Source: Escallonia rubra | Taxonomy: Eukaryota > Streptophyta > Magnoliopsida > Escalloniales > Escalloniaceae | Direction: 5' to 3' | Assembly (NCBI GenBank): GCA_033065855.1 | Contig: JAVXUO010001315.1 | Coordinates: 149,249-213,248, forward strand | DNA: 64,000 bases | Shown: one piece after another, positions 1 through 48,376 of the stretch | Layout of the letters: the number at the start of each line of letters is the position of its first letter | Numbering within the stretch: the stretch's first letter is position 1 | Made by a program: the position numbers and the translations under genes | The notes under the pieces: model-generated | What the model saw: only the letters and a program-made list of their open reading frames with translations | What the model was told of the DNA's origin: nothing | The model's database searches: none

Positions 1-90
1 GAACCATTACAAGGCACTGGTGATAAGTCCAAGGGGTTTACAAGACGAGGAAGAAGATGATGCCGAAGAAGATGCAGTGGACCTTTAGTC
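1..90 (+). pseudogene. C-terminal tail of a FAR1-type transposase (left-arm copy, cut by window start)
   Basis: Plus-strand translation ends in an acidic tail (ISPRGLQDEEEDDAEED...VDL, stop TAG near 89). It matches the tail of the minus-strand FAR1-like copy that ends at 10587, with a few substitutions. It is therefore the mirror copy of that gene; the body lies outside the window. The acidic end has no known function here. Confidence 0.7.
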
Positions 91-274
91 TAAAAATTTA
101 TTGTAATAATCTTTTATGAGCCATCAAGTCTATTGGCGTTGTATTTGAATTATAGACTTTGTAATAATCCTAGATGTGTATTCATACTAAAATTTTACCG
201 TACCATTTGGTTATTCTCGAATTGTGTTTCTTGACCATCTGAATTTTAATGTACTCTTGTAGAAACATTGCATC

Positions 275-1200
275 CAATGCTAAGATTTTTTTTTTGTTTT
301 GATCGTCCACTACACTATGTAGCGGATAGCCAAGCCGAAACACTGACCTCCAACACTTAGAATTTTTTTTTGGTGTTATGCCATCCGCTACACTATGTAA
401 CGGACGACCAAGTAGAAACATTGGCCTCCAACACTTAGAATTTTTTTGGGCGTTTAAGCCGTTCGCTACACTATGTAGTAGACGGCCAGGCAGAACCATT
501 GGCCTCCAACACTTAAAAGAATTTTGTGTGTTTAGACCATCCGCTACAGTTGCGGACGACCAAATAGAAACATTGGCCTCCAACACTTACAATTGTTTTG
601 GTGTTTAAGTCGTTGGCTACAATATGTAACGGACGGCCAAGCAGAAAAATTTGCCTCCAACACTTAGATTTTTTTGGTGTTGAGAACGTCCGTTATACTA
701 TGTAGCGGACGGCCAAGCAGAAATATTTGCCTCCAACAATTAGATTTTTTTTGGTGTTTAGGCCGTCTGCTACACTATGTAGCGGACGGCTAAGCAGAAA
801 CATTGGCCTCCAATACTTAGAATTTTTTTGGTGTTTAGACCGTTTGCTACACTATGTATGTTTTGGTGTTTAGACCGTCTGCTACACTATGTAGCGGACG
901 GCCAAGTAGAAACATTGACCTCCAACACTTAGAATTTTTTTTGGCGTTTAAGGTCATCCGCTACACCATGTAGCGAACGGCCAAGCGGAAACATTTTTTG
1001 GTGTTTAGACCGTTCGCTACACTATGTAGCGGACGACCAAGGAGAAGCATTGGCCTCCAACACTTAGAATTTTTTGGTGTTTAGATCGTCCGCTGCACTA
1101 TGTTGGACGGCCAAGCCGAAATATTAGCCTCCAACTTAGAATTTTTTTGGTGTTTAAGCCTTCTGCTACACTATGTAGCGGATGACCAAGCAGACTAATG
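275..1200. repeat. About 77-bp minisatellite with an internal hairpin core (left arm)
   Basis: About 13 degenerate tandem units. Each has a dyad core of the form GTCCGCTACA-CTA-TGTAGCGGAC, then a spacer related to GGCCAAGCAGAAACATTGG, CCTCCAACACTTAG and a T-rich run ending in GGTGTTTA. Core spacing is about 74-79 bp. Several units show compensating-looking changes on both sides of the dyad, while others break it. Open frames crossing this array are by-products of the repeat. Confidence 0.85.
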
Positions 1201-1439
1201 TAAAGCCCTTTTCCCTCATTTTCTTACCCACCATCAACCTGTCTCAAGAAGTTCAAAAAAACCGCAACACATAAAATTCTTAAAAGAAATACTCAACCGC
1301 AACACGAAACCATAAAAAGATTGCCTTTCATAAACAAACGAGATCAAATTTCATAAACATAAGCAACTCAAGTGACAATGCTATTACATAACAATAAAAA
1401 TTTACAATGTTATTCGGTCTCATCCTGAGCCGGATTTAC

Positions 1440-4367
1440 AATATTCCTAACTAGTCTAGGCCGTCCTCTATGAATTTGTCAAGCTATCCTATATCTAAAG
1501 TTTTCTACGTCTGCTTCGCTCCAGACGGCCGCCTTGAGGCTCTACATCAAGATGAAGACGCCGCAGTCTGAATGATTAGCTCGTATGGGCCTCCGTTTCT
1601 TCAATCGAACTACAAGATTCGGCTTCGTCGGTACTCTTTGTCCATGGAGAGAGTGGCCATGGCACAAAGCAGATCCCGTGGACAAATAAAATCGGCGTAA
1701 GCTACGAGATAACAATTACAATAAGCAAATTAAGAAATAGAAAATCCTAACAACAATCGAAAGATTACCATAGCATCCAATTGTTCTTTGAAAAGTTTCT
1801 TCACGGGCATCATTTTGGCATCGTTGTGGAAAATGTCGAGGATTGATATGACCATATTTTTTGGTTTATAGCAAACCAAGTACCAGTGGGACTGATCCAA
1901 GAAGGGTAATATGAAGGCGTCTGCATCACGGACGTTCACCAATGGAGCAAGCATGCAGTGAGCGAACTAGGATGACGCCAATGGAGCAAGCTTCTCCTCC
2001 CCCTCACAAATTTACACTATTGCCATTCTCCACAAAGCATGCCATGAAAAAGCGCATCCATCATAAAAACGCGGGGATACGCATTGCCCCTATCCCTTTC
2101 CCGACGCATCAAAAGTTTGGTGCAGGTAGACATCACAGTATCTTCCAACCAACGACATCAGAGAATCCACCACAAGACATAGTAATCCATATTATTGGGG
2201 CAATTCACACCACTTTCTGGTTGTAGCTGGGAGGGGGGGGGGACTCGTTGAAGTAACGTTGGTGGATTATGGCACATTGTTTCTGGCTTTAGAGGCTTCA
2301 ACGGATGCACTTTGGGATAAGCAGGGTCGACCGGGGGATATTGTCCTCCTTGAGGCTCTTCGGGTATCCTAAGGTCGTAAGGTCCCGCCCACGGGGTGAC
2401 GAGTGGCAGTGACTCGGAAAGATTGAAGTTTGCAAAGTTGAAGTCTTGTGTGACTTGACTCCGAGAGATTGGTGTAACTTCCGGGTCCCCAAGCAAAGCA
2501 AACGAGGGACCATTGAACTTATCCCTCGCTCACATGGGGAGGCTGCCACCCAGGATAATCCATTCCCAAGCTCACGCCCGAAGGCTATACCGTATAACAG
2601 CTCACAAACTCCCCGCAGTCATGCTCCAATATCTCAGCATGGGAGCGAAGATTCGCTCTCATGGCATCCAGCAGATCCTTTCGCCCACTCAACTTCTTTA
2701 AGAAGACGGGCGAGGCATCAACCTACATCCAAGTAGATAATAAGTAACTTCAAACACGAATGAGATTGAATGCAAAACTACGAGATCTAATTTAATTAAA
2801 AGCATTAGGAAACTTACGAGCTCAAATGCCCTACGCTCATCGATTTGACCCTTAAGGTGGTACTTCTGGCCTCTTGTCCACCTTATTGGGGCTATTCTCT
2901 TCTGGGTGATGCAGTATTACCACTCGAGATACTGCTCAATGCTGACCACGGGGTCAAGCTCCGACACAATGCCCATCGACGTGTCTTTCCAAGAACCCCA
3001 CATTTCAATTTCGGTAGCGTACAATTCGATCGCATTCACCTGGCCAAACCGTTGGACACCCGGTGTGTTCCTATTAACCCTCATATCTGGGGCGTCAACT
3101 GGCAACCCCTGCAGGTAGTCAAAATGGCGCATTGCACGATCTGGTAGTTGCCACTCCGTGATCTCGAAGTGGATCAGTGGTGTGCGTTGTAACCCGGAGA
3201 GCGTGAAGACGAACGACTCTGCCACCCGTCCCGTCAAACGTTTGTACGGCGCCCAACACATTGGCCCAGAGATAGCAAGTCGAACTCTCCCCGATAGAAT
3301 ACGATGTTGTGATGGGGATCATCTTTCCTCGGATAGTGGCTCTCCCTCCGACTGTACTCCCAAGCGCACAACCGAGGCCACACATTATTGGTTCCCTTCC
3401 TACGGTTGGGTGCGCCGACAGTAATGTGTTCATAAGACCACACCTAAGAACAAAGACAAATTAGGGTTGTATCGTCAAAATTTATTATGCACTGACTAAT
3501 AAAAAAATATCGAAAACGTAATTACAAAGAGATATGATATACCTGCAACAATGAAAGACATGCACATATAGCTTTGAAGTCGGGCCTCGTACGCGTTGCC
3601 TTGTGCAATGCTCGATACAAGTATGCAAGAGTTGCTGCACCCCAGGCATACTCCCCAACCTCTTGCAAGTTGCCCAACAATGCTAAATATTTGGTTTGAA
3701 CCGTATTCTTCGGCGTCGTTAGGAATATAATTGCCTCCATCACCCATAGCAGGAAGGCCTTTGTGTGCAGCACAAGCATCTCCTCCGTGTAGTACTCCGG
3801 CAAAACCCCAAAATTTTCTACCAACCACCTCAACTTTATGCCACCACTGTTAAATTCATTCTCAAGTATCGAAGTAAAGAAGCCCTTAATAGCTCTTTTA
3901 GATGTTGCGGAAGACCGAGAAGCAATTATCGGATGCCCCGTCACCGGTAACCCTAAGATGAACCCTACATCTTCTAAGGTTATTGTCATCTCTCCAAGAG
4001 GGAAGTGAAACGTATTCGTTTCACTTCTCTATCGTTCACAAGGGCACCTATTAAGTTTCGGTTAATTTTGTTGAAAGATATCCCCATGAGTAAAAACCCC
4101 AATACCAATTCCCCGCAGCAATTTTTTCTGAAATTTATTCAATCTCTAGTTTTGGAATTGTTTGGTTTTTTCTGTTGTGATGAGTGGTGCTCTTTCCTAC
4201 GAATTAACAAAGACTATTTAAGCAAAGCAAAAGGTGTACAATGTTTGTGAGAATAAGAAAATAAACAGAAATTAAGTATCTTACTGTCCATTCTAGATAG
4301 ATGTACTAATATGGTTTTCTTGGTCGTATAATACGGATGGATCTTTTAGTCCAGGGATAAAGGCCAT
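1440..4367 (-). pseudogene. Plant mobile domain (PMD) protein with Ulp1/C48 protease-like C-terminal region, left-arm copy
   Basis: Minus strand. The probable start is the ATG at 4367-4365 (MAFIPGLKDPSVLYDQ...), followed by a stop in place of W in the conserved IWNGQ end of exon 1 and a donor GTAAGATAC near 4288. The PMD core at 3522-3989 reads ITLEDVGFILGLPVTGHP then LRWLVENFGVLPEYYTEEML. An intron of about 100 bp (donor GTATATCAT, acceptor TTCTTAG) precedes VWSYEHITVGAP. After that the frame shifts at least twice (pieces at 3119-3433 and 2917-3261). A linker (2158-2496) holds SRSQVTQDFNFANFNLSE. The Ulp1-like part has FILPFLDQSHWYLVCY (catalytic His, 1730-1954) and HSDCGVFIL (catalytic Cys, near 1550-1575). 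PMD proteins are known from Mutator-like and gypsy-type elements and from host MAIN/MAIL1. Frameshifts and stops make this copy non-coding. Confidence 0.75.
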
Positions 4368-4457
4368 TTTTGCGACTGAAATTATGAAAAAACGTCAAGT
4401 TTGGAAGTTTTTATCAAACGCTGACAAATTACCAACGCTATACATACAACGCTAGTA

Positions 4458-5556
4458 TAGAGATGTCAAACGGGTCGGGCGGCCCGCGGCCCAGCCCGAC
4501 CTGGCCCGAAAAAAGCCTCGGCTGGCCCAGCCCTTTTATGAACAGTGCAGGCTCGAAGGAATAGGGCCTTGGACCGGGCCAAGGTTTCAGGAAAAATGGC
4601 CCGGGCTAGGCCCAGCCCTAAAAAAGCCCAAAAAAGCCCGGCCCGATTTTGGCCCGGATTCGGCCTTAAATTTGGCCCAAATTCTGGGCTGGCCCACTTT
4701 TCTTTTTAACTTTTTCTTTCAACCAACTATTTTGGTAATTTTTTTAACAAAACAGTTAACTTTTTCTAATGTGTATCTTACTAAAATAAAACTCTTTCTT
4801 TCAACCTACTATTTTGTTAATTTTTTTGGCAGTTATAAACTTTTAATGGCGCCATGTAGCAAAATATGGAACATTTATTTAATGATAAAAGTGAGTTCAA
4901 GTATATCTTCCCCTTCCCCTTGTCTATATGTTTTGCCAAATTAAAATCCTAGTTGCGGCCATGATTTGAAAAGAGGCCCCGTCTGACAAATGACAATGGC
5001 TCGATGACTAGACAAAATGTCAGTGATAATAAAAATAAAAAAACATGATGTTAATATTGTTGATAATAATGTTTCGAGATTTTTAATATGAGTTAATGAT
5101 TCCGACGATTGCAACCTCTTTGCCGTGGTCATGGTTTTACAATAAAGATAAGGATGTGTATAGAAAAGGAGGAAGTAGACAAACTAATGAGAGAGTCACC
5201 CATGTTTAGCTGCTAGTGCCCCTCTCGTGTAACAGGAACCATACTACAATGTCAGTGGGGACCTCTTACACTAGTTTCAGTTGGCGATTGAGACTTGTGA
5301 TGTTGCTCCAAGTCTCCAACCATTTAATTTATAGATGTGAATAACAAGGAGTTAAGAACAGGAAGAAAAAAAATATTGGGCCCGGGCTCGGCCCTAAATA
5401 TTGGGCCTAGGGCCAGGGCTTGGACTGGGCCCAAATATCCCAGATTTCAGGCCCGGCCCGGTTTCTTTTCTTTTGGCCCGGCCCCGACTCTTTTTGTTGG
5501 AAGCCCGCTGGGCCCGGGCTGGGACGGCCCGAACCCGGCCCATTGACATATCTGGA
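4458..5556. mobile_element. Non-autonomous hAT-like element with GC-rich inverted ends
   Basis: The left end reads TAGAGATGTCAA then CGGGTCGGGCGGCC. The right end, reverse-complemented, reads CAGATATGTCAA then TGGGCCGGGTTCGGGCC. Both ends are packed with GGCCCGGGC/CCCGGCC motifs over 150-200 bp, while the middle (4690-5330) is AT-rich with no coding signal. The end form is typical of plant hAT elements. A clean 8-bp target duplication could not be read. No counterpart exists in the right arm of the surrounding inverted duplication, which supports a later insertion. Confidence 0.6.
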
Positions 5557-5569
5557 TAGCACATGCATA

Positions 5570-5595
5570 ACACACACACACACACACACACACAC
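5570..5595. repeat. (AC)n microsatellite
   Basis: A pure AC run followed by GTAATCTAG. Its mirror partner is the GT run at 6213-6236 in the right arm; both sit next to a CTAGCACATGC / GCATGTGCTAG sequence. Confidence 0.9.
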
Positions 5596-5829
5596 GTAAT
5601 CTAGAAATTGTCAACGCTAGCACATGCATAATACATAATCAAAATCATGCGCAATACTCACAAACTCTAGATTATACACAAATAAATGATTGATTTGTGA
5701 ACTTACGTGATTAATTAGACGATTAAAGGAATTCTTGGGAAGAAATTACACAGATCTATTTGCCAACGTAGCTGGGAAGATAGGGAAGAAGAAAGAAAGG
5801 ATGACTTTCGAAGTTAGAGTTTGTTGTAT

Positions 5830-6180
5830 ATATATGGGTTGTCCGCTACATTATGTAGCAGACGGAGTCCCCGTCTGCCACAATATCTAACGGACGGTGT
5901 GGGGGGACATGATGTGACACTTGTCAGCCAAAAGTCATTCGTCACACAGTGTGGCGGACGACTTTTTGACTGATAAGGGTCAGGGTCAAAAAGTCATCCG
6001 CTACACTGTGTAGTGGACGGTTAGGGCGGGATATTTTGGTCAAAAAGACCGTCTGCCACAAAATATGGCAGATGATTTTTTTTTTTCAAAAAAAAAAAAT
6101 AGACCTGGGTAAGAATGGACGGCCACATCGCGCGGGCAACTTAGCCTAAGTTGCCCGCGCGGTCAATGGATTAGCTCTCG
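5830..6180. repeat. Hairpin cores and palindromic end motif near the centre of the inverted duplication
   Basis: Contains five diverged copies of the hairpin core (near 5838, 5869, 5937, 5995 and 6050) with AT/GC changes in the stem. Next comes a 6120-6170 segment built around the palindrome GGCAACTTAGCCTAAGTTGCC. Similar segments lie at 12130-12170 and 12490-12530, so this may be a terminal or subterminal segment of the Mutator-like element. No gene is seen. Confidence 0.55.
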
Positions 6181-6236
6181 TATATATATATATAGATATA
6201 TATATATATATACACGTGTGTGTGTGTGTGTGTGTG
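6181..6236. repeat. (TA)n-(GT)n compound microsatellite
   Basis: TA steps interrupted by GATA, then ACACG and a pure GT run. It lies upstream of the right-arm PMD gene and mirrors the AC run at 5570-5595. Confidence 0.9.
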
Positions 6237-6425
6237 CATGTGCTAGTGTTGGCAAAGCTAGATTTGCCAATGTTTTATAGCAATTTACGAATTTGATGAA
6301 TTATGTATGTGTAGATGTGTATATAGATGATGTATTATGCATGTGCTAGTGTTGGCAAAGCTATATTTGTCAAGGTCTGGAGCAATTTACGAACTTGATG
6401 TATTTGCTTAATTTCAGTAAAAAAA

Positions 6426-9400
6426 ATGACATTTAATCCCGGACCCGAAAATCCCTCCGTCTTGTATGACCAAGTAAACCATATGAGTACAACAATTTGG
6501 AATGGACAAGTAAGATACTAATTTTTGTGATTATTCTTTTTAATTTCAATTGTGAACATTGTATATTTTCCTTAAAGACGCTTTGTTAATTCATAGGAAA
6601 GAGATTTACTAAAGAATCCACTTGAATTGTGGAGGTTACACCCGCTTTATAAGCGTTTGTTGCGTAGGATGGGGTTTGGGGATATTTTTTCCTCAACATG
6701 ACTGGACTTTAATATGGGCCATCGTTGAACGGTATTTTCACTTCCCTCTTAGAGAGATAACAATAACTTTAGAAGATGTAGAGTACATCTTAGGATTACC
6801 CATGACTGGACGGCCAGTTTGTTTTGGTAAGATTGATAGGCAACATAAAGGATTTGCAAGGGACAAATTTGGAGCGATACCCCAAGACTAGTTTGGGCAG
6901 AGTAGAATAAAGTTGAAGTGGTTGGTAGAGTCGTTCGCGGTTTTATCAGAACCTTTCACGGATGAGATGCTGGTTATGCACACAAAGGCTTTCATGCTCT
7001 ATGTGATGGGGGCCATTTTGTTCCCAACGATGATGAAGAACACAGTCTACGTGAAGTATTTATCTCTGTTGGATAACTTGCAAGAGGTAGGCAAGTATGC
7101 GTGGGGTGCAACCACACTTGCATACTTGTCTGCACAAAGCAACAAGGATCGAGTGCAAAGCTATATGTTCATGTCTCTCATTGTTGCAGATGTATCATAT
7201 CACCCCTTTTTTAATTTTTAGTGATAAATTTTTATTAGTCACTGCACAATTAGTTTTTACCATACTTCACCTATTTGTCTTTATTATTTTTTTCTAGGTG
7301 TGGTTTTATGAACACCTCGGTGTCGGGCGCCCCAACTTAGGCCCAAAACCCAAAATATATGGCCTTAGTTACGCTCTTGGGAGTACAATCGGAGGGAGAG
7401 CCACTACCGGAGAAGAGATAAACCCCATCACAAGATTGTCTTCTATATGTTGGGCGTTGTACGAGAGATTGAAAGACATGTGGAAAAGTCATACGTTTTT
7501 ACATTCTCTGGTATGCAGCCCACTCCATTGATCCATTGGGAGATTACAGAATGGCAACTACCTGATCGTGCCATGTGATAGTTGGAATGCATGCAAGGGT
7601 TGCCAGCAGATGCTCCAGACATGATACCTAATGGGAACCCATCAATTGTGATGTTCGGGCATGTAGATGCCCTCGAACTGTGCTTAGAGGAGATTGGACT
7701 GTGGGAATCCTAGCAGGACACACTGAAAGCTATGATTTCCGAGCCTGACCCTGTGATCAGCATCCAGTACAATCTGCAGTGGAATGATCACATTACTCGG
7801 AGGAGAATACACCCAGTGTCGTGGGCAATAGGCGAGAAATACCAGCCTAGGGGTATAATTGAATAGCGAGTTGCATTTGATCTCGCAAGTTTCCTATTTA
7901 AGTTCATGTAGCATTCGATCTCATAAATATCCTATTTAAGTTCATGTAGTGTTTAAGATTTACAAATGATCTAACTTCATGTAAGTTGATGCCTTGCTCG
8001 CGTTCTTCTAAAAATTGAATTAATAGAGAGATCTTTTAGGTGCCATGGGAGCGAATCTTCACTTCTAGGCTTAGACCTTGGAGCATAGCTACGGGGAGTT
8101 TGTGAAGGGCTATAGGGGACAACCTTTGGGCATGAGCCTAAGAATGGGTCATCCCTCGGGGCAGCCTTAGGGTGTGAGCGACAGAATAGGTAGCCCTCGG
8201 GGAAGTCTTCGACCATGAGCGAAGGAATGGGTGATGTTTGGGGGCAATGTTTGGCTGTGAGCAAGGGAATGGGTAGTCCCTCGAGGAAGTCTTCAACCAT
8301 GAGCGAGGGAATAAGTGATGCTTGAGGGCACTATTCGGCCGTGAGTGAGGGAATGGGTCGGCCCTGGGTGCAGCCTTTGGCTAGGAGCCAGGGAATGGCT
8401 CATTGGGACCAATGGAGTCGACGCTCATTTGAGTTTCTTAGGGACTCGTATGTTACAGAAGATCCCCGAAGTCAAGTCACACAAGATTTGGACTTCGCGA
8501 ACCTGTCTTTCTCCAAGGCAATGCAACTCGTCCCGTGGTCAGGAACTTCCACTTCTGGCCTTGGGATACCCGAAGAGCCTCAAGGAGCAAGTAGGAAAAA
8601 AATATCCCCCATGTCGATCCCATCCCTCCTATGTCAAAAGTCATCCGTTGAAGCCCTTGAAGCCAAAAAAACATGCCTCAGTCTACGAACGTTGCTTAGT
8701 GAGCCCCCCAACTATGCTCTCAAGTTCGTGTTCAATATACGGATTATGATGTCCCATCGATAGTATGTCCTCCCTCGGACTAGATGCTTCATTGGATAAT
8801 ACAGTGATAAATACATATATCCAGCTTCTGATCCGTAGAGAGAGGGATAGGGGAGATGCGTATCCTCGATTTTTTATGTTCAATACGCTTTTTAGTTCTT
8901 TACTCTATGGACATTGCGACCAATGGTGTAAGGCAAAAAAAAGGCAGACATTGAGTAGCTATCGTCCCGATTCCGCGCTCACTAAAAAAATCACTAATAG
9001 TACGAATTCAGTGAGTTACTTGGATGTGGATGTCTTTCTACTACCCGTCGTAGACCACATCCACTGGTAGCTATGTCTGTTTCAATCGTTGACAGTCTCT
9101 GGAACGATATAGTGGATGCCTCTTAAGCAACCTTACAGCGGACCCTTGGGAGCTATGGTGAGAATATTATTTGTCTTTATAGTTTATCTATGTCTTAATT
9201 TAATTTCTTAATTCGACTCTCATAGCTTAAGTGTCTTTTATTATTCTGCAAGATTTGTTTTGTTCCATTCTTTGCAACCTCTAAGGGCTTAAAGCACCGG
9301 CAAGATTGAAGCTCAATATTTAGGTGAAGAAAAGTAGGCCCATGCAAGTTAACGGATCAGATTGCGGTGTCTGGTGATGTACATGGACTTCATTTGTCAG

Positions 9401-9480
9401 TCTGAGAGCCTCAAGAAGCACAACTGAAGCCAAGACGATGTAAACAACTGTAGATTTAGGATAGCTTGACAAATTCAAAA
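6426..9480 (+). pseudogene. PMD protein with Ulp1/C48 protease-like C-terminal region, right-arm copy
   Basis: Exon 1 is 6426-6509 (ATG, 28 codons, MTFNPGPENPSVLYDQ... ending IWNGQ) with donor GTAAGATAC. Exon 2 starts at 6597 after TTCATAG with ERDLLKNPLELWRLHPLY. The PMD core follows: ITLEDVEYILGLPMTGRPV, then a TAG near 6889, then LKWLVESFAVLSEPFTDEML and GKYAWGATTLAYL. The next exon starts at 7299 (VWFYEHLGVGRPN). Stops and frame changes continue to about 7890. The linker near 8460-8600 matches the left copy (SQVTQDLDFANLSFS). The protease-like part has DVFLLPVVDHIHW followed directly by a stop (9070) and a separate GSDCGVW near 9356-9375. The His and Cys motifs survive but in broken frames. 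PMD is plant-specific; C48 proteases cleave SUMO-type conjugates, but activity cannot be claimed here. Confidence 0.75.
8180..8350 (+). repeat. Short tandem repeat inside the PMD-Ulp1 linker
   Basis: Units of about 60 bp with a GTGAGC..AGGGAATGGG core and CCCTCGAGGAAGTCTTC recur at least three times. The left arm has a shorter form, so the repeat expanded in the right arm after duplication. It creates a long opposite-strand frame with no domain. Confidence 0.55.
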
Positions 9481-9779
9481 TTGCAAATCTAGCGAAGTTA
9501 GGGATATTGTATTTTTGGCTAAACCAAAGGGTAATATTTGACGTATCTTTTTGATGTAATAAAATACCATTTTATGTGATAATTGAGCACTTCTTTCTAG
9601 TATTGATTGTGTGATGTGATTTGAAAATGTCATGTATGTATAGTTTGAGTATTGATTTATGAATGTGGTGCGTTATAGTTGAGTATCGCTTTGAGAATGT
9701 GGTGTGTGTGTGGTTGCTTTGAGAATGATTAAAACATGTTGGTGGTGGGTTAAAATAAGGCAAAATGGGTTTTAAGGGC

Positions 9780-10400
9780 TGCTCTACCGTCCGCCACATT
9801 ATGTAGCGGACGCCAGGGCAGTGTGCCAAGTCTCTGTTCCAGACAGTGAAACATAATGCTTTTTTGGGGGGTCTTTTTTCTGCTGAAGTTTTGGGACTAA
9901 GAACCCGAATTCTAAGTGTTGGGACCAAGAACCCGAATGTTTTCTAAGTGTTAGAGTGGGTGGTTTCTATCCCATTGTTCACTACACTATGTAGCGGTCG
10001 GTAGGACAAAATGCTTAATTGGGAGTCTTTTTTCTGCCTAAGTGTTGGGACCAAGAACCCCGAATGTTTTCTAAGTGTTGGAGTGGGTGGTTTCTGTCCC
10101 CTCGTCCGCTACACTATGTAGCGGTCGGTGGGACAAAATGCTTTTTGGGGGTCTTTTTTCTGTCTAAATGTTAGGACCAAGAACCCCAAATTTTTTCTAA
10201 GCGTTGGAGTGTGTAGTTTATGTCCTTTCATTCGCTACATTATGTAGTGAACAGTGAAATATAATCCTTTTTTGGGGGTCCTTTTTATGTTTAAGTGTTG
10301 TGACCAAGAACCTCAAATTTTTTCCCAAGTGTTGGAATGCGTAATTTCTGTCCCCTCGTCCGCTACATTATGTAGCGGACGGTGGGACAAAAACTTTTTG
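9780..10400. repeat. About 128-bp minisatellite with the same hairpin core (right arm)
   Basis: Hairpin cores near 9788, 9968, 10104, 10230 and 10357 are separated by about 128 bp for most units. The spacers share GGACCAAGAACCCCAAA, TTTTCTAAG and GTGTTGGAGTGGGTGG. The core matches the left-arm array but the spacer and period differ, so each arm expanded its own unit around a shared dyad. Confidence 0.8.
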
Positions 10401-10586
10401 TTTAAGCTCGGCAGTTTAGCATGGTTAGTTAACTTGCTAATACACAACTCTTACCAAAAATACCAAAAATTGTTCACTACAAGAGTACATTAAAATTCAG
10501 AAGGTAAAAAGAAAATTTGTGAATAACCCAATGTTATATCTAAATTAATTATGAACACAAGAAAATATTATTACAAAGTCCATAGA

Positions 10587-12049
10587 CTAAAGGTCCACTT
10601 CATCTTCTTCGGCATCATCTTCTACCTCATCTTGCAAACCCCTTGGACTTATCCCCAGTGCCTTGTAATGGTTCTGCTTGTCATGGTTGGTCATTTTGTT
10701 GCAGGATGCACACTTTCTCAGTATCTTAGGTTCGATTGCTTGTTCAATAGAGATCTTCACCCATGCAGATCTCTTGCGGCCTTTCATTTATGATATAATT
10801 GGATCCAAAGGTTGGATAACATTGTCTTCTTCCTCAACCGACTCATCTTATTATGATCCATGTGTAGGAATGCCTTCAGCTTCAGCCGCATCGCTAGCTG
10901 AACCTACTTCAAACTGGTCGACAATGGGATCTTGCTCTAGCGTTGGATCGCGAAGATATTTATATCTGGCTATTGTAGCAGAACCCTTTACAGACAAACG
11001 TGTGAACATTGTCACCAGATGATTATAGCGCAACGTCTCTGATTCTTCAAAATCAGTAAATGGATGCTCTGGAAAGGTAATGGTATCATGCAACGTGTTT
11101 TCAACCTTAGACCACCACGGCAAGACGTATTTATCGGGGATTGCCGATATTCTTTTGAGTGAAAAAACGCAGAATGTGTCGACACAACATGCCGGAGAAC
11201 TCAAACTTCTTGCAAACACATGTCACCATATCCGTCTATGTGTCATGATTTACCATATACAGTCTATGCATTTTCTCAGGGACAAGGTCGCTCATCAACA
11301 AATAAACCTTGTATTCACGTGTAGACTTTTCTGCCACCTTGTTTATACTGTATCGTCCCAATTTTTGCAGCTCTACTTGGTTTTGTATGAACATCTCCTA
11401 CGTATAGACTTTTGGACATTCACCTCTAGAGGGGTCTCAAGCAGCCTTCTTCTTTATTTATACATGCTTGCAAAATCCGCAGCCCTTTCTTTCATGAATA
11501 TCTGTGCAACTGTTTTTTGGGTATTTATGATAAAACTCTTCAAATTCATAGATTCACTTCTGCCCAACGTTTTCATGCCCGCAGAAAAATACCTTCTGGT
11601 GTTAATGCCAGTCCATTGTTTTTTGAGCTCATACAAGTGTTGGAGCCACTTGTGGCCTTGCAATGAATAATCCTCAAGAAGTTTTTCCCACATCTCTTCA
11701 AATTCCTCAATCATAACAACTTGTTAACGCACCTGTCAAAATCTTATTTAAAGTCTGGATACTTTGCATACACATGATGTAAACGTTTAAAGTATTTGTT
11801 GCTATTGTGCCAAGTGCACAAGTTGTGTCAAGTCTCTAGGAAGACTGTAGCAATAGCCTTCTTCATTGCCAAATCTTTATCCGTGATGATTACTTTGGGT
11901 GCTTTGTTGTTTATGGCTTCCAACCACGTCTTAAACAACCATACAAAAGAACTTTCGCTCTCATCTCTTAACAATGTGAACCCTAATAGGATGGAGGGAA
12001 CGAGCACTGTTCCACAAAAAGGACGGGGATCTGGGGGCATTTTGGACAA
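10587..12049 (-). pseudogene. FAR1/FHY3-type Mutator transposase remnant
   Basis: Minus strand, read from 12049 to the stop at 10587. First comes the MULE transposase core: RPFCGTVLVPSILLGFTLL, SFVWLFKTWLEA and KVIITDKDLAMKKAI (the TD step carries a catalytic Asp). Then 11454-11714: FEEMWEKLLEDYSLQ, WLQHLYELKKQW, then AGMKTLGRSESMN, a signature block of the FAR1 family. Near 11150-11200 a SWIM zinc finger is readable as CVCKKFEFSGMLCRH, followed by a frame change before IPDKYVLPWWSK. The tail is acidic. The N-terminal part, including the FAR1 DNA-binding domain and probably the first catalytic Asp, is missing, replaced by hairpin-repeat sequence from 12050. Frame breaks between blocks show it is not functional. 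It converges on the PMD gene of the same arm. Confidence 0.75.
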
Positions 12050-12560
12050 AATGTCCGTCCGTTACATAATGTAGTGGACAATTTTTTTCTTTGAAGGAAC
12101 TAGATCTAGTCCATCTGTCCTTTAAGGATTGACGGTCAGATGGCACTGACAACTTAACCTAGGTTGCCAACTTCATCTGGATTTGTGGATGGTTCAAATT
12201 TGTTTTTCGCGCTTTTTTAAGTACGTCCGCTATATAATGTTGCAGACGATTTTTTGACAAAAATGTCCATCACCCACACAATCGAATGTGCAACAAAAGT
12301 GTCTGTGTGCTACATAATGTAGCGAACGATTTTTTGACAAAAATATCACTCACCCACGCAATCGAATGTGCAACAAAAATGTCTGTGTGGTACGTAATGT
12401 AGCGGACGACCCAAACCCATTTATGTCATATAAGGAAGTAGGCAATTAAGGATCTAGGAACAAGAGCACTGGACCATCCACAAATCGCAGATGGACAGTC
12501 AGATAGCGTTGACAACTTAACCTAAGTTGTCTGCGCGCACGCGTGTGCACAGAAACACGC
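12050..12560. repeat. Right end of the Mutator-like element: hairpin cores and palindromic end motifs
   Basis: Hairpin cores near 12056, 12226, 12306 and 12386; the last two lie in 80-bp units starting GACAAAAATRTC. Two segments (12130-12170 and 12490-12530) carry GACAACTTAACCTA(A/G)GTTG, matching the central segment at 6120-6170. The exact end and target duplication could not be fixed. Confidence 0.5.
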
Positions 12561-12813
12561 ATGCTAACTCATTCCATTCATTTTGATAGTTGCATGTTTG
12601 AAAAACTAACGTAGAGCTCCTTAAACAATTTGAAATGGTAGCAAAAATATGGTTTCTTTTGTGAAAAAAATTGATATTCTTATATTCTTAAAAACATGAA
12701 AAGAAATATGAAAAATTGGTGACCAAACAAAGAAGGGAATATACGACTCAAAGGCTTAGACAAGCTGCGTTTCTCAGTAATTATAACTTAACTTTTGCGG
12801 GCGGCTCCAAACC

Positions 12814-13260
12814 TGCTAGAATATTGATCGGGAACCACAGCCGGGAAATGGACCTGCAAAATAGAACACAGAATGACTGTTGGGGATGTTCCGGTGGAGG
12901 AAGTTCCGATGCTAAAGTCAGAACGTTGTTACAGGGGTGGAGCTCTGAATAGCAGAAATGTACTAGGTGTGCGTGTGTGTGAACCTGTCTGCGTACCTGG
13001 GATAGTCCCTTTTATATAGGCATAGACCGAAGAGTCCCGGTTGGCTTGCATCTCTTAACAGATAGGCCTTGGACTTGATCAGTTGGGGTTGTGTTAGGAT
13101 CCTTAGGGATCACGTCACAATCCCTTCTTGATAAAGTTAGTGCCCTTCTAGGACGCTAACTCTATCAGTAGGACAACCCTCAAATCCGAGTCAATCGTTA
13201 ACTATGAGTCAATCTCGCCACATGTCATCATCTGATTGGGCGAGTATTTTTAGCCATACA
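12814..13260 (-). repeat. 3' LTR of retrotransposon 1
   Basis: Matches the LTR ending at 18826 over its whole length with scattered substitutions. It contains the minus-strand TATA-type stretch seen on plus as CCCTTTTATATAGGC. Its outer end lacks the TGTTGC present in the other LTR, so the terminus is damaged or truncated. Confidence 0.85.
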
Positions 13261-13479: not shown

Positions 13480-15720
13480 TTCTGCTCGGACCAAGGCTTG
13501 CTCGGGAAGCGGGCTCGGACCTGCTATCCGGGAAGCCTGCTCAGATCTGCTGCTCGAGAAGTAGGCTCGGACCAGCTGTCCGGGAAGCCTGCTCGGATCC
13601 GCTGCTCGGGAGGTGGGCTCAGACCAGCTGTTCGGGAAACGGGCTCGGACTTGTTGCCAAGGAAGCCTGTGCGGGGCTGCTGCGCGGACGGCCTCCCTTA
13701 GACGCGGGCCTTGTGGCTGAAAGGCCCATCTTTGTTGAAGTCCAAAGCCTTATAAAAAGAATAGAGCTTCCAGGCGCGGCTACGGAGAATCGAACACTTG
13801 ATAGCGTTCGTGTAAGGCGCATGAAATACCACTGGGCTGGTCGGCCAGTTGTTGTTAAATCTGAGCACCAAATATATTTAAACACTTACTTGGAAACTTA
13901 GAAAATTCATAACTTCTGTCCAGGAAGCTTGCTCGGACTTGCTATCCGGGAAGCCTGCTCAGGAAGAGGGCTCAGACTCGCTGTCCGGGAAGCCTGCTCC
14001 GAAAGCGGGCTCGTACCTGCTGTCTGAGAAGCTTGTTCAGGCTTGAAGGCTAGAAAGGCCCATTTTCTACTTCTTTTTTTTTCTTCTGTTCGGTCATGCT
14101 GTGCGGGCTTGCTGCGCGGACAGCCCAATTTCGCTAATTAGGCTTGGAATTATGTTGTGGCTTGTTTCCTTGCAAAAAACGGAACTTTTCTAAAGTTGCT
14201 GGGAAGTCTTAAACTCCTAACCACGCGCACGCAAGAGGCATGGCATTCCGTTGGGCTGCTCGACCCCTTTTGGTACTTCCGAGCAGAAAACTTATTTAAA
14301 CTATCACTTCAAATTTTGAAAGGACCATAACTTCTTGCTCGGACCTCCGTTTAAGGTGATTTTTTTTCCAGGTAGTTTTTTGAGCTCTATCCATAGAAAA
14401 TCATCTTTTCTTCAAAAGAGTTCAGATGCAAGCTCTACTCAAGAAAACTTCTTCGACTTCTGTACAAGAGCTTTCCTTAATCAAACTCCCTAGAGCTCTG
14501 CTCATAGGGTTTGCTCGAAAAAAAAGGCCTTGGAGCTTGACGCGTGAACTTGACTCTCCTAGACTACTCGGGAACTCTGCACGGCCATGCTGCTCGGGTG
14601 TTCTACTCGAGTAAGATGCTCGAGTGTCTTGCTCGGACAGGCTGCTCGGGGAACCTATTCGGACACGATGTGCGGGCATCCTACTCTGGCATCATGTTCG
14701 GGTACGCTGTGCGACATCTTGCTCAGGCATCCTGTACGGGTGCCGCTGTGCGCGGATAGGTGCTAGAATCTTAAGCTGTTGGAAGTTTTAGTCCACAAAG
14801 GTGTCTGCTCGGGCACTCTGTTCGGACGGCATCGTGCTCGGACGGGTGCCAAAAACTTAAGCTCTTGAGAGCTTTAGGATGTGAAATTCGACAAAATTGT
14901 ATGCTCGGGCACTCTGTTCAGACGGCATCATGCCTAGACACTCTATAGGGCCATGCTGTTTGGGCGACGAGCTCTACCATCTTTCTGCTCAGGCAGACAT
15001 TAACCTTTAGGATCTTGAGAGCACAAAGGGAATGAAGTTAGGCTGGCTGCTCGGGTGACGTGCTCGGTTGGCATCATGCTTAGGTAGACGCCATAACTTG
15101 GGCTCTTGAGAGCTCAAAGGTCATCAGACAAGGTGATCTGCTCGGGCGACGTGCTTGGCTGGCATCGTGCTCATGCAGACACTAGAGACTTAAGCTCTTG
15201 AAAGCTTTAGAATCTAGAATTTCACTGTCATAATTTTTCTAAGCAGTTTGATGCCCCCTAGAGGGGTTTGACCTGTGTGTTTTTCACCTCTCCTTGGGAG
15301 GGTGCTTATGCAATTGTGTTTTTAAGCTTGTGCTACCCACATCTTGCATTATGTTTTACTTTCGCACGAACCATTATCGTCAGCCAAGGGTTGGCAAAGA
15401 AGCCTCGCACTCCCACTCGGCTAAGTTTTGAATTAGCAAAGTATGATGGGGCGACGAACTCCCACAAGGACTTTGTCGTTTCACGGGTTAGAACTATAGC
15501 TAAACCGTTCTAGATAAGACTTGAGTCCTTCCTTACTACCTTATGTACACTTTTTCTTGGGAAGAGTGTATGGAAAAGGCGTCTGCACTCTTGGGAGCCA
15601 AGTTAATCTACAAGAGGTCGTGGATGAGCAGCCTGCTTGGGCAAGCTGCTCGGGTGACGTATTCGGGCGACGCACTCGGGCGCTTTGTCGGATTGGCCTG
15701 TATTTACTAGTTCTTGAGAA
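13480..15720. repeat. Internal TGCTCGGG-type minisatellites of retrotransposon 1
   Basis: Three diffuse arrays. 13480-13720 and 13915-14040 have GCTCGGACCTGCTGTCCGGGAAGCC units; 14570-15200 has GCTCGGGCACTCTGTTCGGACGGC units; 15620-15700 has CTGCTCGGGCGACG units. Between them lie two related non-repeat segments (13700-13900 and 14040-14310) that share GGCATG..ATTCC..TGGGCTG. No gene. The array corresponds in position and motif to the TTCTGCTCGGGCAGAATTC array of retrotransposon 2. Confidence 0.65.
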
Positions 15721-18372: not shown

Positions 18373-18826
18373 TGTTGCTGTTAGAATATTGATCGGGAAC
18401 CACAGCCGGGAAATAGACCTGCAAAATAGAGCACGGAGTGACCGCCGGGGGTGTTCCGGCGGAGGAAGCTCCGATGTTAAAGTCAGAACGTTGCTACAGG
18501 GGTAGAGCTCTGAATAGCATAAATACACTAGGTGTGCGTGTGTGTGAACCTGTCTGCGTACCTGGGATAGTCCCCTTTATATAGGCATAGACCAAAGAGT
18601 CCCGGTTGACTTGCATCCCTTGACAAATGGGCCTTGGACCTGATCAGTTGGGGTTGTGTTAGGATCCTTAGGGATCACGTCACAATCCCTTCTTGATAAC
18701 GTTAGTGCCCTTCTAAGATTCTAACTCTATCAGCAGAACAACCGTCAAATCCGGTTCAATCGTTAACTATGAGTCAATCTCCCCACGTGTCATCATCTGA
18801 TTGGGTGAGTATTTTTAGCCATATCA
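18373..18826 (-). repeat. 5' LTR of retrotransposon 1
   Basis: On plus it runs TGTTGCTGTTAG...CCATATCA. It pairs with 12814-13260. The TG/CA ends and the adjacent primer binding site set the borders. Confidence 0.85.
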
Positions 18827-31119: not shown

Positions 31120-31594
31120 TGTTGCAGCTAAAAACTGGATCAGGAACCACACCAGAAAATAGGCTTGCAAAAGAGATAACAAAGTGACCGCCGGGTGAGG
31201 TTCTGGCAGAGGAACACTCCGATGCTTAAGTCAGAGAGAGCTAATAATGTAGAACTCTGAAAAGCAATAGAACACAATGTATATGTGTGTGAAGTTGTCC
31301 ATACCTGGGGGGTTAGACCCATTTATATAATAGTAGGAAGAATAGCCCTAGTAGGACTGGGCTATGAACAAATCTAATCAGGATTGTCATGGGATCCTAG
31401 AGGATCACATGTCTATCTCTAATGATAGAGTTATAGCCCTTTTAGGATTCTGTTTGATGATCAATATGGCAAGTGCCAAATAAACAGTATCCTAGTGGAA
31501 GACTACGTATCCAAACTGCCACGTGTCATAACGGCCACGTGTCATGACTGCCACGTGTCACCTACATATTGGAGGCGTATTTTTAGCTATATCA
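31120..31594 (-). repeat. 3' LTR of retrotransposon 2
   Basis: TGTTGCAGCTAAAAAC...TAGCTATATCA on plus; same length as its partner and highly similar. The minus strand carries a TATA-type stretch (plus CCATTTATATAATAG). Confidence 0.9.
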
Positions 31595-32416: not shown

Positions 32417-34155
32417 TCAGGGGTTCCCGAGTCCCGGATCTGGATCCTGCTGAACCGGGGCCGGGGCGGCTGGTCCAGCAGTGCCCTGCTCCCTCATCAT
32501 CCGGCACACCACTGTAGCAATGCGCTGGATATCCTCCTCGTTCAACTGAGGCCGAGGAGCCGGTGTCTGTGGAGGGGCAGCAGGGGGTGAGGACGCTCCT
32601 ATCACGGCACGAGGAGTCGTGCTAGGCAGGCCGCGTATGCGGCCTTTCGGCCGATTCACGACCTCCGGCGTATCCAGCCATCGCTTCAACCCCCCAGTAC
32701 TCGCAGCCGTACTAGTGGACGCTGATGGCTGTCCGGACTGCTGCTCGGACCCCCTTAGCTGTTCATACGAGGCCTGCAAAAATAGTGGTTTAACGATATG
32801 TTAGGGCATTAATTAACGAAACAGACATTGAGGATAGAAAGAAAAAACATTAACTTAAATAAATTGACTCACATCGATCCGCCGGGCAATATCTGAAATA
32901 TAGTCGCCCGCCTGGTGCGTCTCGTCCTTGTCCTTCTTCCGCACGTGCGTCTGAGTATAGGTCAGAGCTATGACCTCATCCTCCTCTAGATCCGGGTGCT
33001 CGACCGCGTTCATGTGTCGGACGATGTCGTGTGGCACCGACCCCCCCATGTGCGTCGGATCTCTGTTCTGTCTGTTCTCAGCCCCGCTCTTACTCTTGGC
33101 GTCCCAACCTGGATCCGCAGCCCACCGATCTATCATCTCCCCCCATACACCGTGAGATATCCAATGTGGGGGATATTTCGTCATGTCCGTCATCGGGGCA
33201 CCCGCGGGCAGCGCCTTCTTCGCCCGGTCCCGTGCATCGTGGAGCCATCGGCGGTAATTCTTGCCGATGTAGGCAAAGAAAGCCTGCTGCCCCAGTCCCT
33301 GCTGCTCAGGCGTATCAAACGTGAACCCCTCCTGTAAGGCATTCAATAACACAAATTAACAACATAAAACAGACAGTAATTTAACATTTACCAACGCTGA
33401 AAAAAATACTTCACCGTACCAGCCACTCCTCCCATAGGGCCTCCCTCGCAGCGGCATCCCAGTCCTTCCAGTACAGGCGTGGCTCGAAGAATCGGCCCTT
33501 CACAAGAACGCCGATCTTCGTCCTCGCCATATTCTCCAGGATCCTGCCAAAGAAGTTTCCTCATCATATTCTTCGCGTCATAGTACGACGGCGGTAGCTT
33601 TTCACTTTCGGGCAGTATTTCTTTGATGAAGGTAACAAACTCGTTAAAACCTTTCTCACTCAGCCCGTGGTCTGATTTCAACTGTAATAACCTACTAACC
33701 GCAGACAGCCGTGTGTGTTTCGGAGCTCCATCCCACATCGGCTCTTCCGCAGCTCTCAACAACTCATAAAACTGATGAGCCCCCTCGTTCGGCGGCTGTG
33801 GCCTGTCGTTACCCCAGTCAACATTAGCATGCCCAGCATCCATAATCATATCTCGGAAATCATATCGTGCCTCCTCCCTAACTTCAGTTTGACTAGCCAG
33901 GTTGGACGACAATACTATCGTTTCCCCGTGCTGCGTCCACCTTGTGTATCCACCCATAAAACCGTACCGACGAAGATGCCATTTTACTTCAATTCTTTTT
34001 CTCCAGTGCAACAACTCACATCTACCGCACGGGCACCTTATCTTAGCAAGGTCAACATGTGCAGGATGCGCATAAGCGAAGTCGAGAAATTCGTCAACGC
34101 GACACTCAAAATCTTCAGCATTCTTCCTTTTCATCCAACTTCGATCGACTGACAT
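32417..34155 (-). pseudogene. CACTA 1 protein: TNP2 N-terminal region joined to a Ptta/En/Spm (TNP1-like) region
   Basis: Three exons on minus. Exon 1, 33420-34155, starts with ATG and MSVDRSWMKRKNAEDFECRV, the transposase-associated domain (DRSWM, then RCPCGRCELLHWR), and runs to LPPSYYDAKNMMRKLL, where TNP2 normally continues to its catalytic part. At about 33545 the frame changes into ILENMARTKIGVLVKGRFFE and LYWKDWDAAAREALWEEWL. Intron 33332-33419 (donor GTACGG, acceptor TTACAG). Exon 2, 32873-33331, starts EGFTFDTPEQQGLG and is a Ptta/En/Spm-type region. Donor GTGAGT, then exon 3, 32417-32773, after TTGCAG: ASYEQLRGSEQQ, Pro/Ala-rich, stop at 32417. Exons 2 and 3 join in phase. The frame break and the lost TNP2 core mark a deletion fusing two genes. 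Confidence 0.75.
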
Positions 34156-34199
34156 GACGACTGAATTATCGTACTGTATATCACCTTCAATAATGACCA

Positions 34200-34800
34200 G
34201 TGTTTAGGCATTGCCGATGTAAATATCAATGCATGAATGTTACAACATGTCTACATATTTCCCCTCCACTCTTGAACAGGTAGTGGTCCTATCCCATTCA
34301 GAAAAGCACATGTTTATAAAACAGTGAATAACTCATGCTTAGTCCGATGTCTGTGGAAAATTCGGCAGCACCTCCCCGCATTTCTCCAAGTACACCACAT
34401 CGATTAGGTGTTCTAACATTCATCTAACCTTGCTCAGGAAGGTTTGACGGATGTTAGAACACCAGATCTGTATGCACCGGAGAAACACACGAGAACGTGT
34501 ACCAAATATCCACGACATTCATTACAAGGCATTACTTTGTAATGAGTACCTTTGAACGGGAACTAAGGGTTTCTATGCATGCATGTGTTCAGAAATTGAT
34601 AAGATATGCAAGAATCTTTCCGAAATATCAAAACTGCAGAATGATCGTTGCATATGTTATCAATTCCACATTAAATAGAACTCGTTGACAACGAGTTGAA
34701 CCATCTCGTTGCCAATGGACTTCTCAAAACAACAATTAATATAAAGAAGGCAGGGTTTGTAAACAACGAGTAATTGAACCATCTCTGGGCAACATGGAGT
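34200..34800. other. Non-coding part of CACTA 1
   Basis: Upstream of the transposase start. A short inverted pair near 34405-34460 (GGTGTTCTAACAT ... ATGTTAGAACACC) is visible; no gene or motif otherwise. Confidence 0.4.
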
Positions 34801-44213: not shown

Positions 44214-45240
44214 TCACATTAGCACCACTATGGTATGAGACTGAAAATATGGTCGGAGACGCCTAGCCGATGTGATGAGGGCTACTGCTATCTTATCCAT
44301 CTTCAGATATCTCGTCTCTGCCTCTTGTAAGATATTGCTGACATAATAGATTGGTCTTTGGATTCCGTTCTCCTCCTTGACCAAAACGGCGCTGACCTCA
44401 ACTTCGGTAAAGGAGAGATACAGAAATAGGTCCTCTCCTATAAGCGGTTTAGAAAGTAGAGGAGGAGAACTTAAGTATGTCTTAAGTTCTTCGAATGACT
44501 TCTGACAATCTTCTGTCCAAGCAAAGTCTTTTGCTTTCCTGATGGCTTTGAAGAATGGTAAACATCGTTCGGCTGAACGAGCCATGAACCTTCCCAAGGC
44601 TGCAACCCATCCCGTTAACTCTTGCACTTGTTTGATTGTTTTGTGGGATGACATGGTTTGGATGGCCTTTATCTTCTCTGGATTTATTTCTATTCCTCGT
44701 TGAGAGACCATGAAGCCCAAAAACTTCCCTGACGTAACCCCAAAAGCGCACTTGAGTGGGTTCAACTTCATCTTATACTTCCTAAGTATGTCGAAGGTTT
44801 CTTTCAAGTCTTTGGCATGGAATTCAACCTTGATACTCTTGACGAGCATATCGTCAATGTACACATCCATGTTCTTCCCGATCAAGTCTCAGAATATCAT
44901 GTTCACCAGGCGTTGATAAGTTGCCCATGCGTTCTTAAGTCCAAAGGGCATTACTTTGTAACAGTATAGCCCTCTCTCAGTGATGAACAAAGTTTTTGAA
45001 ACATCGTACAGATGCATCATGATCAGGTTATAACCAGAATAGGCATCCATAAAGCTCAGCAGTTTGTGGCCCGAAGAAGCATCAATTAGAAGATCAATCC
45101 TTGGGAGAGGGTAGCTATCTTTTAGGCATGCTTTGTTAAGATCTGTATAATCGATACATATTCGCCACCTACCGCCCGGTTTTCGAACCATGACAACATT
45201 GGCGATCCAATAAGGATAGTAGATCTCTTCGATGAAGTTG
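44214..45240 (-). pseudogene. Reverse transcriptase and first RNase H of retrotransposon 2
   Basis: The first block (44889-45191) has VRKPGGRWRICIDYTDLNKA, LPRID and LSFMDAYSGYN (first catalytic Asp). A stop follows near 44886. The second block (44214-44885) begins with DVYIDDMLVKS, the YIDD active site, and continues through FLGFMVSQRGIEINPEKI to RNase H (FLYLSFTEVEVSAVLV, RPIYYVSNIL). These enzymes copy element RNA into DNA. Lengths fit Ty3/gypsy RT. Confidence 0.85.
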
Positions 45241-47901: not shown

Positions 47902-48376
47902 TGTTGCAGCTAAAAACTAGATTGGGAACCACACCAGAAAATAGGCCTGCAAAAGAGAACACGGGGTGACCGCCGGGTGGGGTTCCAGCCGAGGAACGCT
48001 TCAATGCTTAAGTCAAAGAGAGCTAACAATGTAGAACTTTGAAAATCAATAGAACACAATGTATATGTGTGTGAAGTTGTCCATACCTGGGGGGTTAGAC
48101 CCCTTTATATAGTAGTAGGAAGAAGAGCCCTGGTAGGACTGGGTTGTGAACAAATCTAATCAGGATTGTCATGGGATCCTAGAGGATCACATGTCTATCT
48201 CTAATGATAGAGTTATAGCCCTTTTAGGATTCTGTTTGATGATCAATATGGCAAGTGCCAAATCAACAGTATCCTAGTGGAAGACTACGTATCATAACTG
48301 TCACGTGTCATAACGGCCACAATTCATGACTGCAACGTGTCACCTACATATTGGATACGTATTTTTAGCTACATCA
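47902..48376 (-). repeat. 5' LTR of retrotransposon 2
   Basis: 475 bp, TGTTGCAGC...AGCTACATCA on plus, paired with 31120-31594. A TATA-type stretch lies near 48111 (CCCTTTATATAGTAG on plus). Confidence 0.9.

Follow-up and report, generated by a model that had tools for sequence, protein, structure and literature searches.

Two decayed insertions of a FAR1-type MULE family in Escallonia rubra, and a possible VANC-like role for their PMD-Ulp1 gene

Two related elements at the start of the window

We analysed a stretch of 64,000 nucleotides from Escallonia rubra (GenBank assembly GCA_033065855.1, contig JAVXUO010001315.1, positions 149,249 to 213,248 of the forward strand), here called the window, whose first part holds two arms with a gene for a plant mobile domain (PMD) and a Ulp1 protease domain, a repeat array and FAR1-type transposase sequence. 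A preliminary description had read these arms as a single three-part element that had been duplicated in inverted orientation around a centre near 5.9 kb. We find instead two independent, dead and decayed insertions, of differing lineages, of one family of FAR1-type Mutator-like elements (MULEs) with terminal inverted repeats (TIRs). To this explanation as a whole, which joins separate ancestry and stacking at a microsatellite with a VANC-like anti-silencing role for PMD-Ulp1, we give a probability of about 0.6.

For the comparison, 10 kb of left flank was added; negative coordinates lie to the left of the window start. The left element, L, runs on the forward strand from about -3005 to 6180, with termini placed by eye. 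Its left TIR (-3038 to -2760) is an inverted match, at 75-81% identity, to 6212 to 5871, and its right TIR (5871-6180) comprises the very hairpins that had been taken for a centre of symmetry. Between the TIRs, in the same order as in the sampled copies described below, stand a FAR1-MULE transposase gene, a tandem array and, on the opposite strand, a PMD-Ulp1 gene. The decayed transposase gene (-2192 to 43, forward strand), located by tblastn with the open frame of copy L025, enters the window with its 3′ end only (1-43). The array (259-1194; TRF) has a unit of about 77 bp around the dyad GTCCGC-N11-GCGGAC. The PMD-Ulp1 gene (1416-4367, reverse strand) has exons at about 4367-4287, 4196-3543, 3443-2812, 2722-1835 and 1634-1416 by exon-by-exon tblastn, and its PMD is recognized with E 1.5e-40 on one piece. 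Because the parts compared contain five stops in FAR1 and six in PMD-Ulp1, L is dead. It also holds an insertion of 1.1 kb (about 4456-5550), with GGGCC-rich foldback ends read by eye, which is missing from other copies; these run directly from about 4407-4459 to 5599-5663. We presume this insertion to be hAT-like.

The right element, R, occupies 6216 to about 12571 on the reverse strand, its right edge being assigned by eye, and is joined to L by a microsatellite at 6181-6245 that consists of (TA)n followed by (TG)n. Its PMD-side end is truncated and its FAR1 part is internally deleted. The PMD-Ulp1 gene (6426-9508, forward strand; exons by tblastn at about 6426-6518, 6667-7186, 7327-7890, 7985-9094 and 9297-9508) includes a Ulp1 cysteine motif, NGSDCGVW, read by eye at approximately 9346-9369. 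The array (9789-10400) is built on the same dyad as that of L and comprises a tandem at 9911-10400 with a unit of about 127 bp (TRF) and a further dyad at 9789. The FAR1-MULE remnant (10632-11995, reverse strand) covers residues 299-765 of 783 and is therefore without the FAR1 DNA-binding domain. Beyond it, the FAR1-side terminal region (12000-12571) carries dyads, one of them at 12057, and an 80-bp tandem repeat at 12229-12409 (TRF); 12000-12155 matches the terminal region of the sampled copy L032. With 8 stops in FAR1 and 15 in PMD-Ulp1 in the parts compared, R is likewise dead.

In L032, the PMD promoter contains an internal (TA)n microsatellite, followed by the distal promoter and the TIR. 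Both of these are lost in R, whose sequence ends at the promoter-internal (TA)n, and the right end of L adjoins there. No left TIR of R was found, the PMD-side end being lost, and the 10 kb to the left of the window gave no further match to this missing end. Directly left of L, between two (TA)n tracts, lies a 285-bp stretch (L009:6637-6922, about -3363 to -3078 in window coordinates) whose two edges both resemble the termini of the family; this may be a tiny third element stacked with L and R. It was considered as the lost end of R, displaced beyond L, and rejected, being unlike the promoter or TIR that R has lost.

Self-comparison of the window with its left flank did yield the mirror-image resemblance described earlier. 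In the FAR1 part, -1340 to 115 matches the reverse complement of 11995 to 10562 at 82% identity, and in the PMD-Ulp1 part, 1437 to 4429 matches 9511 to 6365 in six pieces at 66-75%. The gene set is also common, each arm having a PMD, a C48/Ulp1 region and FAR1-type transposase sequence, although R retains only part of the last. The claim that both arms carry the same kind of array holds for the dyad, but not for the units of 77 and 127 bp, which give no long diagonal alignment. The diagonal in the window is thus real, yet it does not reflect a duplication.

The family elsewhere in the genome

In the 566-Mb assembly, exact matches to a 25-bp palindrome number 188 in forward and 191 in reverse orientation, against 0 for a control. 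From the first 100 palindrome places listed we picked by eye 14 pairs, the two members of each lying 6-11 kb apart on a single contig (nominal orientation opposite in 12 pairs and the same in two), and retrieved 10 kb around each. PMD and FAR1 homology occur together in 13 of the 14 intervals; the other, L015, shows two FAR1 arms instead. A TIR pair was found in 11 of the 14 (223-373 bp long, 89-96% identical, 6.5-9.9 kb apart), and a FAR1 open frame of 782-783 amino acids in five of 11 loci listed. Seven of the first eight palindromes listed lie inside sequence matching a reference element, and the eighth about 0.24 kb away.

The intact layout consists of a TIR, a FAR1-MULE-SWIM transposase gene, a tandem array of the 23-bp dyad, a convergent PMD-Ulp1 gene and a second TIR. 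The suggestion of a composite Mutator-like family that unites PMD, Ulp1 and FAR1 transposase is therefore borne out by the 13 intervals in which the parts are found together, by the TIRs and by 9-bp target duplications in two copies. Its domains, its TIRs and its target site duplication, which falls within the 8-11 bp of such elements, place the family among MULEs of the FAR1 type; the long TIRs and the FAR1-type transposase set it apart from VANDALs, which are non-TIR MULEs (or have degenerate TIRs) and carry VANA/VANB/VANC.

Sampled copy L025 illustrates the two genes. Its 783-amino-acid transposase frame matches the Pfam families MULE (3.9e-33), FAR1 (3.6e-13) and SWIM (5.4e-5), all over the curated cut-offs, and contains a ZSWIM RNaseH-like domain too. 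The second gene, read as five exons, has a PMD across exons 2 and 3 (E 3.6e-34 and 3.9e-17), then a repetitive linker and a Ulp1 domain in which the motifs GQSHW, VIDN and NTSDCGVF can be read by eye. The C48 match on exon 4 (E 0.0011, 19.3 bits) falls just below the Pfam cut-off of 20.7, that exon holding a partial domain; on its His-Asp-Cys residues the predicted protein is a member of the Ulp1/C48 family. Exon 2 of the L025 gene is frameshifted, and the exon 4/5 junction is approximate.

Both genes are under purifying selection. Relative to L025, the ratio of non-synonymous to synonymous substitution rates (dN/dS) is 0.26-0.41 for FAR1 and 0.30-0.49 for PMD-Ulp1 in the six copies that have diverged most (L012, L014, L032, L033, L and R); close copies, which have few changes, give 0.05-0.42 and 0.35-0.70 respectively. 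MULEs often hold captured gene fragments, Ulp1 among them, according to passages in PMC2528002 and PMC13317346, and PMD-Ulp1 might be such a passenger with no role for the element, the array then being a neutral satellite. We consider this improbable, given that PMD-Ulp1 is present in 13 of the 14 sampled intervals and that its dN/dS between lineages is well under 1. The pairing of PMD and FAR1 also seems to recur on two contigs from other sources: judged by their same size and source, PMD P0005 and FAR1 P0121 seem to share one ENA contig of 7,311 bases, and PMD P0012 and FAR1 P0134 one of 11,583 bases. What had been called accessory PMD and protease genes is, more exactly, one selected gene, convergent with the transposase gene, whose PMD has a VANC21 fold (see below).

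Ancestry of the two elements

In a FAR1 tree of 17 rows, from which L012 and L019 were dropped for 51% coverage, R pairs with L032 (contig C56; support 100/99), is joined next by L033 (C1016; 97/96) and then by L. Constraining L and R to be sisters costs 51 log-likelihood units (approximately unbiased test, p = 2.87e-5). Pairwise identities follow the same order: in FAR1, R shares 84% with L032, 83% with L033 and 82% with L, and in PMD 74% with L032 as against 69% with L. Among the best 40 candidates scored, loci on C56, C1016, C911, C173, C408, C1588, C2976 and C2347 reach 83-84%.

Since R is closer to a copy on another contig than to L, and a sister relationship of L and R is rejected, we conclude that the two arms did not arise by inverted duplication. 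That origin would account for the colinear reverse-complement diagonal, and such products do arise in this family, as a true close head-to-head pair on contig C293 attests. In the window, however, L has a complete TIR pair of its own to which the supposed centre belongs, the array units differ, and R is truncated at an internal microsatellite; a duplication here is very unlikely indeed.

Microsatellite insertion and head-to-head joins

Duplications of 9 bp at the target site, ATTAAACAA in L025 and TAGTATATA in L030, were seen by eye in two of the 14 printed loci. In the remaining 12, at least one end abuts (TA)n or (TG)n, where a duplication cannot be judged by eye. A genome-wide pattern search for pairs of family termini that point outward from a spacer of 4-34 bp returned 95 places, against 0 for the control, and head-to-head joins are therefore routine in this genome; by eye, the spacers are TA-rich in 46 of the 50 outward joins listed. 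With 12 of 14 loci ending in a microsatellite, and with these 95 joins, the family is a microsatellite-targeted MULE of the MuTAnT/SaTar kind. It appears to target (TA)n microsatellites, and we believe that L and R came to be stacked head to head because the family repeatedly inserts beside its own ends. The right end of L would have become joined to the (TA)n inside the PMD promoter of R, whose distal end was lost. Microsatellite stacking is described for SaTar elements of guayule and rice in parts of PMC5907723.

The C293 pair (C293:3811-11082 and 19069-11713; loci L034, L015 and L035) is a much younger head-to-head arrangement within one subfamily, with 7.3-kb arms that are 93.3% identical, a spacer of about 0.6 kb and (TA)n near both sides. 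Its arms share 91 exact matches of at least 21 bp, which reach 361 bp in length.

The dyad and its arrays

The palindromes reported earlier in the window are real: dyads like GTCCGCTACACTATGTAGCGGAC, with up to three mismatches, gave 19 rows at 16 distinct places, with 0 expected. The 23-bp dyad GTCCGC-N11-GCGGAC is present in the array and in both TIRs; the array itself, which holds up to tens of dyads, is non-coding and lies apart from the ends. When the unit of the L array was compared with six other arrays, the dyad window surpassed the best spacer window in four (R, L025, L014 and L012).

We asked whether the variable centre of the dyad covaries as a hairpin stem would. Among 334 units from 17 copies, covariation at the position pair 9-15 was not above that of shuffles (0.37 versus 0.40), and in the 121 distinct units it was 0.45 versus 0.40, a value reached by 229 of 2000 shuffles. 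The 334 units had been picked by their outer arms, which hardly vary and are uninformative on covariation. A change in L033 that by eye seemed compensated was not upheld over the 334 units. A centre that varies without covariation disfavours selection for a hairpin and suits the binding site of a dimer.

It had also been proposed that transcription across the centre could yield long double-stranded RNA (dsRNA). The arms do oppose each other across the centre and the dyad symmetry is strong, so that the dyads might act as hairpins, in cruciform DNA or in RNA, or the head-to-head pair as a dsRNA source for silencing. Besides the lack of covariation at the variable centre pairs, the arms in the window are too diverged to make a good case, sharing just 12 identical stretches of at least 21 bp, which reach no more than 31 bp; we therefore give these roles hardly any weight. 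The C293 pair would be a far better case for dsRNA.

Other repeats in the window

To the right of R, segments 12813-13258 and 18378-18823 form a direct repeat of 446 bp, 91.7% identical and about 5.6 kb apart, which resembles a pair of long terminal repeats (LTRs). Within that interval, 13499-13650 is a GC-rich 26-bp tandem repeat (TRF) unrelated to the MULE. A second direct repeat, 31120-31594 and 47902-48376 (475 bp, 92.2%, nearly 17 kb apart), encloses a frame at 44217-44888 (reverse strand) that is by eye reverse-transcriptase-like, and the whole resembles a long LTR retrotransposon. An open frame of 271 amino acids at 33391-34203 (reverse strand) resembles by eye the N-terminal domain of CACTA transposases.

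Discussion

The intact element of this family combines a transposase gene and a convergent PMD-Ulp1 gene with a dyad array between them and the dyad in both TIRs. In a Foldseek comparison, the predicted structure of the PMD matches the DNA-binding fold of VANC21, a protein that, according to passages in PMC5735166, binds a 9-base motif, repeated in tandem in the non-coding stretches of its element, and brings about a loss of methylation. Some VANC genes, called KIU, carry Ulp1 (PMC13317346, in part). As a protein with a VANC21 fold and Ulp1 is encoded beside a tandem dyad array, we infer an analogous anti-silencing module. PMD-Ulp1 is most likely a VANC-like anti-silencing factor that would bind the dyad in array and TIRs and remove silencing marks from its own family, perhaps aided by the SUMO-protease-like domain; with silencing lifted, the transposase could be expressed. 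That the PMD binds DNA, that the dyad is what it recognizes, that methylation is lost and that Ulp1 is active are all predictions from this analogy.

Several observations weigh against this interpretation. The TM-scores of the fold matches are modest (query/target 0.29/0.44 and 0.59/0.41), sequence identity is 10-13%, and a PMD profile search of PDB sequences does not retrieve VANC21; a fold likeness alone would in any case demonstrate no function. Cross-matches to DUF1985 in several PMDs have E values of 0.0046-0.24, all far below the Pfam cut-off of 35.1 bits, and in a Pfam scan DUF1985 is not listed for P0009, P0012 or the pieces of L025. The dyad is no better conserved than the spacers in two of the six arrays (L033, where the two are equal, and the decayed L032, where the dyad does worse), and, being also in the TIRs, it could be a transposase site. 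The host PMD proteins MAIN and MAIL1 work in silencing and not counter to it, according to parts of PMC5418596. As to ancestry, L032, L033 and R deviate in base composition in the FAR1 tree. A PMD tree was built and not used (L032, at 73% coverage, was under the cut, L033 and L015 were unmatched and R formed a long branch); without a near relative of R it cannot test this caveat.

The main rival accepts the same family and the same stacking, and takes the dyads to be bound by the FAR1 transposase, alone or along with PMD-Ulp1. PMD-Ulp1 would then act as an accessory factor of transposition, placed like mudrB, or would interfere with the MAIN/MAIL1 pathway, without VANC-like DNA recognition. 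The presence of dyads in the two TIRs, and not in the array alone, is what one would expect of transposase sites, the second gene of MuDR has a poorly defined function (PMC4486113, in part), and proteins with a PMD encoded by transposable elements have been speculated, in passages of PMC5418596 and PMC8616336, to act in counter-silencing without binding DNA. But the arraying of dyads, up to tens of them, in non-coding DNA remote from the ends, and the specific match to the VANC21-DNA fold, are then left unexplained, and we consider this reading unlikely, though by no means negligible.

A VANC-like function for PMD-Ulp1 could be taken further. We suggest, tentatively and at a little short of even odds, that the PMD binds DNA and is a homologue of the VANC anti-silencing domain. 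The MULE-borne PMD-Ulp1 would then be a second VANC/KIU system, in a TIR-MULE, targeting the 23-bp dyad array, with host MAIN and MAIL1 using the same fold on the opposing side of the conflict. In the literature searched we found no link of the PMD fold to VANC, although the VANC21 crystal paper, outside that search, may make one. The fold match supplies a candidate DNA-binding protein together with a candidate target, GTCCGC-N11-GCGGAC, and related copies hold intact transposase genes; the function of the PMD, in transposons and in MAIN/MAIL1, thereby becomes testable by a binding assay.

Comparison with known systems

In its insertion habits the family is like MuTAnT (PMC4486113) and SaTar/AgS-MULE (PMC5907723), which, in the parts of those texts concerned, insert in (TA)n, make duplications of 9-11 bp elsewhere and form end-to-end stacks joined by microsatellites. 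In the window, unlike these, the partner R is joined at an internal microsatellite and has lost its end. The autonomous MuTAnT element is described in passages of PMC4486113 with one transposase gene, unlike the two-gene family here, and in the SaTar text (PMC5907723) 'Ulp1' and 'FAR1' have 0 occurrences.

Ulp1 is a point in common with MULEs of Arabidopsis, melon, rice and grapevine, and KI-MULEs have it in reverse orientation to the transposase, according to parts of PMC2528002 and PMC13317346; those parts mention no PMD, 'mobile domain' having 0 occurrences in the two texts. MULEs of grasses and Amborella also bear a plant mobile domain, but there, as passages in PMC5418596 have it, the PMD is fused to the transposase, whereas here it belongs to a separate convergent gene, fused to Ulp1, and is accompanied by a dyad array.

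Compared with the VANDAL/VANC system of Arabidopsis, including KIU, the family differs in its long TIRs (those of VANDALs are degenerate or missing, in the accounts available in part), in its FAR1-type transposase, in a domain labelled PMD rather than DUF1985 by Pfam, and in a motif that is a 23-bp dyad and not a 9-bp site, with anti-silencing being here a proposal. It is like that system in combining, within a MULE, a transposase with another protein that has the VANC21 fold and, as far as those partial accounts go, in its tandem motif arrays in non-coding DNA and, as in KIU, its Ulp1 domain.

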